The notes below the pieces were generated by a model. It worked only from the letters and a program-made list of their open reading frames with translations, was not told where the DNA came from and did no database searches. The translations under genes and the position numbers were made by a program. From Gammaproteobacteria bacterium (lineage in GTDB: Bacteria; Pseudomonadota; Gammaproteobacteria; Tenderiales; Tenderiaceae): a DNA stretch of 15,084 nt. This document shows positions 8,227 through 14,972 of this stretch, piece by piece. The DNA is taken from the NCBI GenBank assembly GCA_027001525.1, contig JALTMR010000304.1, positions 1 to 15,084 on the forward strand, given 5' to 3'. Position 1 is the first letter of the stretch. Every line of letters begins with the position of its first letter.

Positions 8227-9552
8227 CTAAGACAAGGTGTCGCCGAGCGCCTGGAGTTTGCGGTAGAGCGTTCGTTCGCCCACACCCAGTTTTGCCGCCA
8301 GTGAGCGCTGGTCACCCCGGTGCTGTGCCCTGGCCCAATGGAGGTAGCGTTGCTCAAGCGCTTTAAGCGAAAGAATCTCCTCCCCGAACGAGAGGCTGGT
8401 GCCGTGTTGGCCGCCGCCCTGGTGGCACTCCTGTGGCAAGTGTTCCGGTAAAAGAAGGGGGCCGTCAGCCAGCAGGCTGGCCCGTTCGAGAATATTGCGC
8501 AGTTCGCGGATATTTCCCGGAAAGGGGTAGTGTTGCAGTATCTGCAACGCACTGCTTGAGAGCTGGCGCTGACGCTCCCGGTTGAGCTGGCCCAGGATGT
8601 TGTCCGCCAGCAGGGCGATGTCACCCTGGCGCTGGCGCAGCGCCGGCAGTTCGATAGGGAAGCTGCTGATGCGGTAGTAGAGATCTTCTCGAAAGCGCCC
8701 CTCTGCCACCATCTGCTTCAGGTTTCTGTGGGTGGCGCAGATCAGGCGAAACCGCGCCTGGCGCGGCTCAATACTGCCGACCCGGCGAAAGGTGAGCGTC
8801 TCGATCAGGCGCAACAGCTTGACCTGCAGAGCCAGCGGAATGTCCCCAATCTCGTCGAGAAAAAGCGTCCCTCCGTGTGCTGATTCCACCAGGCCAATCT
8901 TGCGGTGATGGGCTCCGGTAAAGGCCCCCTTTTCATGGCCAAACAGTTCACTTTCGAATAGCGATTCACTCAGGCCCGAGCACTCCACCGGCACGAAAGG
9001 GCCGCTGGCCCCCTGGCTGGCATCATGGATCGCTTTGGCCACCAGCTCCTTGCCGGTGCCCGACTCCCCCAGCAGCAGCACGGTGACATCACTGGGCGCG
9101 ACGCGCTCGATAAGCCCCAACATCCGATTGAATGCTCGCGAACGCCCCACCAGGGTCTGGGCTGCCTCGGGGTGGCGGGCGACCTGGCTCTGGCGCAGGA
9201 GTTCAAGAAAGTACTGCACCTCCCCGTGTTCGTTACGAATGGGCAGAGTCTGAACCTCAACGTGCTCTTCACCCGCCGAGGTGAAGTGCAGATGGAGTAC
9301 TCGTTGTGGCTGGCCGGTCTCCAGGCTGGTCTTCAGGGGGCAGGTCTCCCCCGCCTCATCGCAGGGTCGGGAGAAGTGGTGGGAGGCCTCATAACAGCGC
9401 GGTAAGCGGGGGCCGTTGGGTTCCAGCGCGTAGTGCCGCCGATAGGCGCTATTGGCAGCGAGAATGTGGTAGTCCCGGCTGATCAATACCGCCGGGTCGG
9501 TGAAGCCGTTGAGCAGCGCCGTCAGTGAGGGTAGTTTTGCAGGTGATGTCAT
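8227..9552 (-). CDS. fisR: FisR-like sigma54-dependent sulfane-sulfur-sensing activator
   Basis: This 441-residue bacterial enhancer-binding protein has three parts. The N-terminal PAS-type sensor (about 10-120) contains Cys53, Cys64 and Cys71 in CYE, RPCDE and TCPLK contexts. The AAA+ domain (about 134-375) has Walker A GESGTGKE (162-169), GAFTGA (209-214, the sigma54 contact loop) and Walker [12 protein letters not shown] (227-237). A Fis-type helix-turn-helix ends it (about 396-436). In Cupriavidus FisR, which activates pdo-sqr in response to polysulfide, the essential cysteines are, as I recall, at 53, 64 and 71, an exact match. The start ATG (complement of 9550-9552) has no clear ribosome binding site but is supported by that numbering. 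It is divergent from the cyd series and overlaps a TGTCAT motif, so autoregulation is possible. Confidence 0.85.
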
Positions 9553-9610
9553 GGTATCGGTCAGGGTGTCATATCTGTCAGTGGGTGCCGGCAGTATGTC
9601 ATTTATGGCA
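9547..9610. promoter_or_regulatory. Candidate upstream activator sites: three phased TGTCAT motifs
   Basis: TGTCAT occurs at 9547-9552, 9567-9572 and 9597-9602, spaced 20 and 30 bp apart, all whole helical turns. The third belongs to an imperfect palindrome TGTCATTTATGGCA (9597-9610). A perfect 8-bp palindrome TGCCGGCA lies between (9586-9593). The cluster sits about 125-185 bp upstream of the sigma54 -24 element, the usual place for an enhancer-binding protein. The first motif covers the fisR start codon. Assignment to FisR is inference. Confidence 0.5.
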
Positions 9611-9731
9611 GTTGTTTGGGGAGGTAAAATAAACAGGTGTGCTCAAGCTGCCCACGGCCATTTCTCCAGCCCGGTGCTAACCGGCTGAATATAAAAATTA
9701 ATTTCCCGCTTGATGTGTTGCCCGGCGAAGG

Positions 9732-9748
9732 CTGGCCCGGCTATTGCC
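9732..9748 (+). promoter_or_regulatory. sigma54 (-24/-12) promoter for the haem protein-cyd genes
   Basis: CTGGCCCG (9732-9739), four bases, then TTGCC (9744-9748) matches the YTGGCACG-N4-TTGCW consensus at all but two positions. The invariant GG (9734-9735) and GC (9746-9747) are separated by exactly ten bases. The expected start site is near 9759, giving an 80-base leader before the ATG at 9840. An AT-rich tract at 9688-9705 lies between the promoter and the proposed activator sites, where DNA bending would help looping. Confidence 0.8.
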
Positions 9749-9765
9749 TTAGTGTGCCACTAAGG
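9747..9765. promoter_or_regulatory. Perfect inverted repeat over the -12 element and predicted start site
   Basis: CCTTAGTG (9747-9754) and CACTAAGG (9758-9765) are perfect inverted repeats separated by three bases. The repeat starts within the -12 element and covers the predicted transcription start. This suits an operator for a second regulator, probably a repressor, better than an RNA hairpin, because its left arm would not be transcribed. No protein is assigned. Confidence 0.45.
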
Positions 9766-9839
9766 TATGGCTGGCATTGGACATTGGGCAAGCTATGACC
9801 TACACCTAGAGGGCTCAAAGAAACGCAAAGGGGGCGAAA

Positions 9840-10427
9840 ATGCGAGCTGGCAGGGACGTGGTATTGGCACTGGTTTTGGGGGTCTCATCGGTTGCCGTGG
9901 CAGCAGATGATGTGGGTCAGCGCAGTCAGGAGGCCATGGCGGTGACCCAGTCTTTCATGAAAGAGCTGGGCAAAACCATGATGGGGACCATGAAGGCCCA
10001 GGGCCCCGTGGCGGCGATCAAGGTCTGTGCCGAGAAGGCCCCGGAGCTGACGGCGGCAATCTCCCGGCGTCAGGGCTGGAAGGTGACCCGCGTTGGCACC
10101 CGCGTACGCAATCCGATGTTGGGGATGCCCGATGTCTGGGAGCAGAAGGTGCTGGCGCAGTTTCAGGCACGCCTTGAGCGCGGCGAGCCGATCAAGGGGA
10201 TGTACTTTTCCGAAGTGGTGAACGAGCCCGATGGCCGCTACTTTCGTTTTGCCAAAGCCATCGGCGTCAAGCCCAAGTGCCTGATTTGCCACGGCGCAGA
10301 GGCGGATATTCCTGCCCCTGTACGACAGCACCTCAAGGCGCAATACCCTTTTGATCGGGCCACAGGTTACCGGGTGGGTGAGCTGCGCGGTGCCGTGACG
10401 ATCAAGCAACCCCTCATCAGCATGTAA
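9840..10427 (+). CDS. Secreted DUF3365-like c-type haem protein
   Basis: The 195-residue product has an N-terminal signal peptide (positive MRAGR, hydrophobic 7-21, likely cleavage after AVAA near residue 22). A single c-type haem motif, CLICH, lies at 147-151. The segment WKVTRVGTRVRNP (80-92), the FRFAKAI strand and the C-terminal GELRGAVTIKQPL pattern match the DUF3365 (Tll0287-like) haem-binding fold, which is PAS-like. Cys63 is an additional cysteine. It is exported and should bind haem covalently in the periplasm. It is the first gene after the sigma54 promoter and ends five bases before cydP. A role as haem-based redox or ligand sensor, or as electron carrier, is unproven. The Shine-Dalgarno is AAGGGGG at 9828-9834. 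Confidence 0.85.
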   Translation: MRAGRDVVLALVLGVSSVAVAADDVGQRSQEAMAVTQSFMKELGKTMMGTMKAQGPVAAIKVCAEKAPELTAAISRRQGWKVTRVGTRVRNPMLGMPDVWEQKVLAQFQARLERGEPIKGMYFSEVVNEPDGRYFRFAKAIGVKPKCLICHGAEADIPAPVRQHLKAQYPFDRATGYRVGELRGAVTIKQPLISM

Positions 10428-13507: not shown

Positions 13508-13533
13508 GGCCGAGTGCGGGGGTGCACCCGGTT

Positions 13534-13570
13534 CGCAAAGCGGGCGTTGACCCGCCCTTGCGTTATTTTT
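13534..13570 (+). terminator. Terminator-like hairpin between cydX and sqr
   Basis: CGCAA (13534-13538) pairs with TTGCG (13558-13562). GCGGG (13540-13544) pairs with CCCGC (13551-13555), with a small internal bulge and a 6-base loop. The stem is followed by TTATTTTT, with five T at 13566-13570. A separate palindrome GGGTGCACCC lies at 13520-13529. The interrupted stem and offset T tract suggest partial rather than complete termination. Confidence 0.6.
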
Positions 13571-13613
13571 AGCACCAACTAACAACAAACATTAAAAACG
13601 GAGGAGGTTTGTT

Positions 13614-14897
13614 ATGGCACATATCGTCATTATGGGCGCAGGTACAGGTGGGATGCCGGCGGCGTATGAATTGAGAGAGGCGCTGAGTCAAGAGCACACC
13701 ATTACGGTGATTAACGGCAGGGACTATTTTCAGTTTGTGCCTTCCAACCCGTGGATCGGGGTGGGCTGGCGCGAGCGTGATGACATTACCTTTCCCCTGC
13801 GGCCCTACCTGGAGCGCAAGGGTATCGAGCTGATTGTCAGCCCGGTAGAGAAGATTGACGCTGAAGCTAATGCGCTGGAGCTGGCCAACGGCGAGCGCGT
13901 TGGCTACGACTACCTGCTCATCACTACCGGGCCGAAACTGGCTTTTGAGGAGATCGAAGGCATTGGCCCCGTGGACGGCCACACTCAATCAATCTGCACG
14001 GTGGATCACGCCGAAACGGCCTATGATGCCTACAAGCGGCTGGTGGACAACCCCGGTCCGGTCATCGTTGGCGCGGTGCAGGGGGCCAGCTGTTTTGGCC
14101 CGGCCTATGAGTACGCCTTCATCCTCGATGCCGATCTGCGCAAGCGCAAGGTACGTGACCAGATTCCCATGACCTACATCACCAGCGAGCCTTATATCGG
14201 CCACCTGGGTCTGGGAGGGGTGGGGGACTCCAAAGGGATGATGGAGTCCGAGCTGCGCAATCGCCACATCAAATGGATCACCAATGCCAAAGTCACCAAA
14301 GTGGAAGCGGGCAAAATGTTCGTGGCCGAGCACAACATGGAAGGCGAGGTAATTAAGGAGCACGAAGTGGAGTTTAACTACTCGATGATGTTGCCTGCTT
14401 TCAAAGGTGTGGATGCCGTGGCCAATGTTGAAGGGCTGTGTAATCCCCGGGGCTTTGTCATCGTCGATGGGCATCAGCGCAGTCCCAAATATAAAAACAT
14501 CTACTCCGCCGGCGTCTGTATTGCCATTCCTCCCGTTGAGGTGACACCCGTACCTACAGGCACCCCCAAGACGGGCTACATGATCGAGTCCATGGTGACC
14601 GCGATTGTTCACAACATTGAAGAGGAGCTGCAGGGCAAGGAGCCCACACATAAAGGTACCTGGAATGCCATCTGTCTGGCAGACATGGGCGACACCGGGG
14701 CAGCCTTCGTGGCGCTACCGCAGATTCCCCCACGCAACGTCAACTGGTTCAAAAAAGGCAAGTGGGTGCATGTGGCCAAGGTTGCGTTCGAAAAGTATTT
14801 CATGCGCAAGATGAAGAAGGGCACCTCAGAACCCATATATGAAAAATACGTTCTCAAGGCGTTAGGAATCAACCGCCTGAAAGACGACGATCGCTAA
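13614..14897 (+). CDS. sqr: Sulfide:quinone oxidoreductase
   Basis: SQR is a membrane-associated FAD enzyme that oxidises sulfide to sulfane sulfur or polysulfide and reduces quinone. The 427-residue product has an N-terminal FAD-binding [12 protein letters not shown] (8-19), [15 protein letters not shown] (38-52), and three active-site cysteines: Cys128, Cys160 and Cys354. From memory these correspond to Cys128, Cys160 and Cys356 of the A. ferrooxidans enzyme, whose sequence it closely resembles. [22 protein letters not shown] (from 306) and the C-terminal amphipathic segment [19 protein letters not shown] fit FAD contact and membrane attachment. The Shine-Dalgarno GGAGGAGG (13600-13607) is very strong. 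The gene may be read from the cyd promoter or from its own within the 106-bp gap. Confidence 0.93.
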
Positions 14898-14939
14898 GGG
14901 GCGTTCTGCTCCCCCTCTCGTTCCTCCCGCCTGGCCGTT

Positions 14940-14972
14940 GCCGGGGTTGTCTCCCACAACCCCGGCTTTTTT
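14940..14972 (+). terminator. Strong intrinsic terminator after sqr
   Basis: GCCGGGGTTGT (14940-14950) and ACAACCCCGGC (14956-14966) form a perfect 11-bp stem with a 5-base loop, followed directly by TTTTTT (14967-14972). It lies 42 bases after the sqr stop. A second perfect palindrome, CGCGAT-A-ATCGCG, lies at 14974-14986. Confidence 0.95.

Follow-up and report, generated by a model that had tools for sequence, protein, structure and literature searches.

Gene organisation of the locus

The window examined here is the whole stretch of 15,084 nucleotides (nt) from a gammaproteobacterium of the Tenderiaceae (assembly GCA_027001525.1, contig JALTMR010000304.1, forward strand), in which the gene of a FisR-like, sigma54-dependent activator faces genes for a haem protein, a cytochrome bd quinol oxidase and a sulfide:quinone oxidoreductase (SQR). 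Comparison with related loci points to a FisR-type regulon of which cytochrome bd is probably a direct target. The assembly amounts to 2.75 Mb (88% complete) and encodes RpoN. All genes proposed by a sequence-only reading of this DNA were located at or very near the places it gave them, and the array and its control region comprise the following features.

8227 to 9552, minus strand: FisR-like sigma54-dependent activator of 441 amino acids (aa), identified by Sigma54_activat, AAA lid, PAS_4 and HTH_8 matches and by its orthologues
9567 to 9580: palindromic enhancer-type site 1, TGTCATATCTGTCA, beginning 15 nt upstream of the fisR start
9597 to 9610: palindromic enhancer-type site 2, TGTCATTTATGGCA, 30 bp from site 1
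9733 to 9748, plus strand: -24/-12 (sigma54) promoter-like site, TGGCCCGGCTATTGCC, with two mismatches to the consensus and its weight drawn from conserved placement
9840 to 10427, plus strand: Tll0287-like (DUF3365, sCache_heme) protein, matching PF11845 and 5b82
10433 to 10624, plus strand: cydP, putative small cytochrome bd subunit (NF045611, 42.8 bits over a cut-off of 29.6)
10614 to 12236, plus strand: cydA, E. coli-type quinol oxidase subunit I (PF01654, 579 bits)
12238 to 13380, plus strand: cydB (TIGR00203, 488.9 bits over a cut-off of 117.3)
13403 to 13507, plus strand: cydX, 34 aa, assigned from position and matches in relatives only
13534 to 13570, plus strand: terminator-like hairpin between cydX and sqr (stem 13534 to 13562, -14.6 kcal/mol, then UUAUUUUU)
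13614 to 14897, plus strand: sqr, Acidithiobacillus-type SQR (3sz0 match)
14940 to 14966, plus strand: strong intrinsic-terminator-like hairpin 3' of sqr (terminator scan)

The proposed order of haem protein, cydP, cydA, cydB, cydX and then sqr was confirmed by family and structure matches, and for cydX by position and relatives; the fisR start lies 287 nt from the facing Tll0287-like gene. CydA narrowly misses the PRK15097 cut-off (931 vs 968). The SQR aligns over residues 2-426 with the solved SQR 3sz0 (633 bits; presumably from Acidithiobacillus), and its Cys128, Cys160 and Cys354 align with cysteines of 3sz0 which we take to be the redox cysteines. Although PMC9104464 describes cydP as limited to Burkholderiales, it was found in the window and in further families; given the small orders to which they belong, the window genome and genome G135 are unlikely to be members of Burkholderiales.

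The regulator and its orthologues

The search for FisR covered 369 gammaproteobacterial genomes drawn from the larger class. Full-length matches of at least 410 bits were taken as close orthologues (27 found, the window included), which together with L111, L030 and L035 make up the 30 loci of group A; 13 loci at 45-50% identity (L109, L110 and L112-L122) served as the contrasting group B. The 410-bit cut and every motif cut-off were chosen after the scores were known.

The window regulator matches PF00158 (Sigma54_activat) at 226 bits and HTH_8, the Fis-type helix-turn-helix family, at 21.5 bits, slightly under the cut-off of 22; its translation contains the GAFTGA motif, which is exact in 40 of 43 orthologues. 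Cysteines occur at positions 53, 64, 71, 191, 272 and 376, the first three within the PAS-type regulatory domain and numbered as we take the triad C53/C64/C71 to be in FisR of JMP134. The description of a GAFTGA activator with FisR-spaced cysteines thus holds in the window, and the triad recurs in all 43 orthologues examined (30 of group A and 13 of group B) and in none of 13 other sigma54 activators from the fetched loci. A fourteenth activator (L154), set apart in this count, is FisR-like and has the triad, falls outside group A and faces cydA without the composite element described below. According to PMC9774590 (accessible text), FisR senses by way of three conserved cysteines, and by analogy we infer a response of the window regulator to sulfane sulfur via Cys53, Cys64 and Cys71.

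The control region beside fisR

A near-consensus -24/-12 promoter divergent from the regulator had been proposed from the sequence. Such a site is present and, as set out below, its placement is conserved; the motif by itself occurs at chance level (three sites with at most two mismatches in the window vs 3.6 expected from shuffles) and was dropped as a significant signal in its own right. Because of this chance frequency, the upstream regions of the FisR orthologues were compared. Expectation-maximisation (EM) applied to the 300 nt adjoining fisR in each of the 30 group A loci returned a palindrome of width 14 with the consensus TGYCA-N4-TGRCA (log-likelihood ratio 118.6 vs 19.0-20.9 in three shuffles of the same width). 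The two palindromes of the window, absent from the sequence-only reading, lie 15-58 nt from the fisR start and are the top two plus-strand scores over its 15 kb. A pair of palindromes is found in 17 of the 30 group A loci, with a spacing of 30-33 bp in all 17 under a rule that permitted 28-35, and in 1 of the 13 group B loci.

The composite element, defined as a palindrome of at least 11 bits followed 60-260 nt on by a -24/-12 site, occurs beside fisR in 21/30 group A loci (a count that includes the window and the loci used to discover the palindrome), in 0/13 group B loci and in 1/860 shuffles. Its -24/-12 site follows the palindrome at 66-226 nt and is 111-273 nt away from fisR, and the window site rises above chance because this placement relative to both is conserved. 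The palindrome matrix was built from 31 training sites in 17 loci without cyd as the facing operon, although for two of these (L094 and L100) cyd lies 9-13 kb away in the same genome. Since the training sites were chosen from the EM run over all 30 group A loci, window included, the palindrome score of the window and most of the 21/30 are not independent; sites outside that run are those of L095, L107, L156, L028, L029 and the 11 replication loci considered below.

Linkage of fisR and cyd across genomes

At E<=1e-100, E. coli-type cydA gave 76 hits in 71 of the 369 genomes, and 10 of the 27 close-FisR genomes have it. In all ten, which span nine families, cydA is on the fisR contig and within 14 kb of it. 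The cyd genes belong to the fisR-facing array itself in eight (the window, L089, L092, L095, L097, L103, L106 and L107), and in the remaining two cydA is found 8.8 kb (G046) and 13.4 kb (G094) from fisR. By contrast, among 12 cydA-bearing genomes whose FisR-like hit scores 283-410 bits, a count made by reading the result tables, the two genes stand side by side only in G017 (L154), most of the others having them on different contigs. In the fisR tree L107 sits on a long branch. Two further loci with a close FisR (L088, 12170-14525, and L102, 10839-13192) have distant bd-type genes nearby (27-35% identity); in L102 these genes lie downstream of fisR, behind a second persulfide dioxygenase homologue.

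The composite element also marks the cyd operons themselves. Upstream regions were analysed for 75 of the 76 cydA hits (10 close-FisR loci, L154 and 64 others), a partial hit (G328:C1:2301826-2303076) being excluded and L154 kept apart. A palindrome with a -24/-12 site was found within 1.5 kb upstream of cydA in 7/10 close-FisR genomes vs 0/64 loci without a group A FisR (Fisher p = 6.7e-8, which, like the other Fisher value given here, takes no account of relatedness), and in 1/750 shuffles. In L107 it lies inside the array, immediately before cydA. The palindrome pair occurs upstream of cydA in 5/10 vs 1/64, the sole exception among the latter being L145 of G127, where a strong pair precedes cydABX-sqr (9366 onwards) and a cydP-like frame is seen by eye ahead of it. 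In G127 just paralogue-level activators and no close FisR were found, and the regulator of L145 may be missing from that assembly.

Replication was carried out in the order of G135 (20 genomes), where 13 genomes have a close FisR, 11 of them new. The palindrome pair is present at fisR in 8 of the 11 new loci, and palindrome plus -24/-12 at fisR in 6, with one more (L211) having it at cydP. In four of the 11, cydPABX adjoins fisR, facing it in L210, L212 and L216 and running in the same direction in L211; the element is present in all four, and sqr also belongs to the array in L211. At the level of sequence, the comparison shows conservation of the linkage, the palindrome pair, the -24/-12 placement and the cysteines. 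Control of a bd oxidase by a FisR-like regulator, as first proposed for the window, is therewith supported comparatively by the linkage in 10/10 genomes and the element in front of cyd (7/10 vs 0/64), and conservation of the fisR and cydPABX pairing extends to the 4/11 further loci.

Evidence against the proposed regulon and alternative explanations

Several observations weigh against control of the whole array by the FisR-like regulator. The -24/-12 site of the window is imperfect and not significant alone. Three of the ten cyd-linked loci are without the composite element by the rule used, namely L092, which has a good match to the promoter and weak palindromes, L103, and L155, which has a perfect FNR box instead; L103 is placed between groups A and B in the fisR tree. 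Furthermore, six of the 30 group A loci (L090, L091, L094, L096, L098 and L101) have no recognisable facing cyd, sqr, persulfide dioxygenase or Tll0287-like gene, in some cases through contig ends, the census having been made with a simple open reading frame (ORF) caller. The terminator-like hairpin ahead of sqr argues against simple co-transcription of cyd and sqr. Lastly, L025-L027, the fetched loci most similar to the window in the Tll0287-like protein (69-71%) and SQR (90-92%), indicate that the Tll0287-like gene and sqr can persist without fisR in the locus, the element or cydAB.

The last two points bear on an arrangement in two units, with FisR driving just the Tll0287-like gene and cydPABX, and sqr being under its own promoter and control, which is possible but doubtful. 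It would account for the hairpin (13534-13570), for the 106 nt of intergenic DNA between cydX and sqr and for the retention of sqr in L025-L027; the hairpin, however, is not among the mechanical terminator scan results, and the folding of the 106-nt spacer is ordinary (z = -0.01). Against two units, a simple scan of 6400-15084 gave no sigma70-like promoter, and the 400 nt before sqr hold no palindrome of at least 9 bits and no -24/-12 site of at least 12.5 points, with a borderline palindrome of 9.0 bits at 13561 under the whole-window background. Moreover, cyd and sqr share one same-strand array in L139, L143, L145, L089 and L211 (genomes G206, G058, G127, G036 and G386), and read-through into sqr is possible. 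Of the single module put forward in the sequence-only reading, the part consisting of the haem protein gene and cydPABX behind a FisR-type element is supported and cyd-sqr arrays exist in five other genomes, while membership of sqr is uncertain, given the terminator-like hairpin ahead of it, a feature absent from that reading.

The gene order in L025-L027 is Tll0287-like gene, broken cydP and sqr, with cydAB absent; no fisR was found in the loci and no element in the 500 nt before the Tll0287-like gene. The broken cydP remnants, which appear to be a scar of cydAB loss, lie as follows.

L025, 8577 to 8776: broken cydP
L026, 8574 to 8929: broken cydP
L027, 8021 to 8187: broken cydP

This suggests that the bd genes and FisR control were lost together and the Tll0287-like gene and sqr kept. 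Insertion of cydPABX between the Tll0287-like gene and sqr in the window lineage had been considered and was dropped, as the remnants point to cydAB loss.

It is unlikely that the regulator controls cyd via sigma54 in answer to a different signal (low oxygen, nitric oxide (NO) or general thiol redox), the sqr neighbours merely reflecting a shared niche. A PAS_4 domain is present in the regulator, and bd oxidases are classically associated with low oxygen and resistance to NO. Against such a signal, the orthologue group faces sqr in 13/30 loci and persulfide dioxygenase homologues in several, and the cysteine triad through which FisR is reported to sense is invariant here.

Still less probable is the explanation that the palindromes serve fisR autoregulation only, while cyd just happens to adjoin fisR and answers to FNR or another form of oxygen control. 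The closeness of the palindromes to the fisR start would agree with it, as would the FNR-like boxes in 28 of the 64 cydA loci without this FisR; yet the contrast with 2/10 close-FisR cyd loci is itself not significant (p = 0.19), and the window has no FNR-like box of at least 9/10 in the 1.5 kb upstream of cydA. Replacement of FNR boxes by FisR elements, suggestive at most with this p value, was not adopted. Two genomes separate the element from the start of the regulator gene. One of them, G046, has an element where fisR and sqr face each other (L100), and its cydP, 8.7 kb away (L156), has a perfect -24/-12 site, TGGCACGTCGATTGCT, with a palindrome 121 nt upstream of the promoter site. In the other, G386 (L211), fisR is oriented like cydPABX-sqr and has no element at its start; between fisR and cydP lie a palindrome pair with a spacing of 33 bp, one more palindrome and TGGCACAGCGCTTGCT, an arrangement that, on its layout, fisR autoregulation alone cannot explain.

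The idea that an ordinary activator came to stand beside an ordinary oxidase operon by chance, with which the chance frequency of the promoter motif in the window would agree, is effectively excluded by the 10/10 linkage, the 4/11 adjacency in the second sample and the composite element in 7/10 vs 0/64.

The haem protein and sulfur partners

The Tll0287-like protein scores 89.3 bits against PF11845 (cut-off 24.1) and has a haem-c motif (CLICH, CXXCH) and, by eye, an N-terminus resembling a signal peptide. Its Cys63, in a VCxxxAP motif with a recurrent [VI]C, aligns with a cysteine of 5b82. Apart from the window, 31 loci were examined for a palindrome of at least 9 bits in the 500 nt ahead of the Tll0287-like gene; 8 have one (L028, L029, L030, L035, L084, L085, L088 and L136, of which L028 and L029 have no fisR alongside), and the other 23 do not. 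The gene adjoins sqr in several of the loci examined.

The window holds no persulfide dioxygenase homologue at E<=1e-8, in agreement with the sequence-only reading, and its facing array differs in this from FisR operons with that enzyme; in the 88% complete genome of the window, no persulfide dioxygenase of the L108 type was found at E<=1e-15. The regulator is nevertheless filed here as FisR-like, with persulfide dioxygenase treated as the usual partner and not as a requirement, because the facing genes vary within the orthologue group. In L102, L108 and L111 of group A, fisR faces a metallo-beta-lactamase-type persulfide dioxygenase homologue and an SQR-like flavoprotein, near the reported FisR arrangement, and these loci fall among the cyd- and sqr-facing members of the fisR tree. 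Facing partners appear to have been swapped repeatedly, since the cyd label needs 7 changes on that tree, at least 3 of them on well-supported branches. Among the 30 group A loci, 13 have window-type sqr in the array opposite fisR, and the combination of palindrome and -24/-12 site is seen ahead of cyd, sqr, Tll0287-like and persulfide dioxygenase arrays alike. In group B, the sister FisR, sqr lies directly upstream on the same strand in 11/13 loci; these regulators have the same cysteines, and the composite element occurs in none of the loci.

Persulfide dioxygenase homologues were also observed in the FisR-facing arrays of L089 (7181-7843), L093 (9564-10247), L030 (7179-7856), L106 (7181-7798) and L103 (3911-4540). 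In L089 and L093 the HxHxDH-type metal-binding motif appears degraded by eye, suggesting that these copies are non-catalytic and were retained beside cyd or Tll0287-like genes. In L090, the first gene facing the FisR orthologue encodes a bacterial globin (3324-3824).

Neighbouring genes

A second oxidase is encoded to the left of the FisR-bd cluster.

1 to 6410: cbb3 oxidase cluster (end of ccoO, then ccoP, ccoG, ccoH, ccoI and ccoS), the names resting partly on Pfam domains

The cbb3 cluster adjoins the FisR-bd cluster on its upstream side, so that two oxidase types are neighbours. An ORF of 235 aa (6493-7200, minus strand) has no Pfam match and shares 67% identity with an ORF in the same place beside a DsbD_2 gene in L029. 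For dsrA, the genome of the window gave a sub-threshold match (53 bits vs 392.85).

Comparison with known systems

The FisR of Acinetobacter baumannii and of Cupriavidus pinatubonensis JMP134 resembles the window regulator in being a sigma54 activator with an N-terminal regulatory domain, an AAA+ domain and a DNA-binding domain, encoded divergently from a predicted sigma54 promoter and a target operon with sqr (PMC7315123). The A. baumannii target, however, is pdo1-sqr-tauE-hsd, whereas the window array consists of the haem protein gene and cydPABX with sqr behind and no persulfide dioxygenase. Expression of cytochrome bd goes up with sulfide in A. baumannii, E. coli and M. tuberculosis; in A. 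baumannii sulfide induces cydAB, and in the accessible text of that source fisR dependence was tested for A1S_1708-1711 and BigR-regulated genes, not for cydAB (PMC7315123).

In E. coli, where according to the authors it had not been known how sulfide induces bd, the SqrR/BigR homologue YgaV is likewise a sulfide-responsive regulator with an effect on cydAB (PMC9774250, accessible text). It differs in belonging to another regulator family and in that cydAB read counts go up in the ygaV mutant, whereas in the window the regulator is a sigma54 activator and a site recurs in front of cyd. The gene order cydP-cydA-cydB(-cydX) is shared with Burkholderia cenocepacia, whose oxidase is tied to low-oxygen and anoxic survival (PMC9104464, accessible text), while cydP of the window lies behind a FisR-type element. 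Tll0287 and the window protein are alike as stand-alone domains with CXXCH and an aligned cysteine, the haem of Tll0287 having Cys/His ligation (PMC12889525, preprint); sulfide is unmentioned in the accessible main text of that source, whereas the window gene belongs to FisR-type arrays beside sqr. Among the FisR/sulfide and cydAB/sulfide papers listed by the literature searches, most subscription papers being outside reach, no report of FisR control of cyd was found.

Proposed mechanism

Haem-copper oxidases of the cbb3 type are generally sulfide-sensitive and cytochrome bd sulfide-resistant. In the proposed sequence of events, sulfide would be oxidised to persulfide or polysulfide, partly by SQR as is generally known, and the sulfane sulfur would modify Cys53, Cys64 and Cys71 of the regulator and turn on its ATPase, as expected from the FisR family. 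Bound to the two TGYCA-N4-TGRCA palindromes, which comparison places about three helical turns apart, the regulator would activate sigma54-RNA polymerase at the -24/-12 promoter about 130 bp away; binding beside the fisR start may also allow it to control its own gene. The operon would provide the CydPABX oxidase together with a haem-c Cache protein of the periplasm, and sqr would be expressed either through read-through or from a start of its own. Quinol oxidation could then be sustained by cytochrome bd when sulfide blocks the cbb3 oxidase encoded just upstream, so that SQR would keep delivering electrons.

Extended to several gammaproteobacterial families, the proposal is that a persulfide sensor of the FisR type acts directly, via a dedicated duplicated enhancer (spacing about 32 bp) and a sigma54 promoter, to bring in bd as terminal oxidase, so that respiration is re-routed by sulfur signalling and not by oxygen sensors such as FNR, and that within the regulon SQR has the periplasmic haem-c Cache protein as a constant partner. 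This wider proposal is favoured on balance, with some reserve.

Biological significance

The locus would provide a specific and direct route to sulfide-induced cytochrome bd in other Gammaproteobacteria, defined by the type of regulator, the pair of 14-bp palindromes and the -24/-12 site before cyd. Furthermore, it would place an incompletely characterised family of haem-c proteins in the sulfide response. If the proposed control is true, the FisR regulon would extend from sulfide removal to the protection of respiration, and the motif may help to find further targets.

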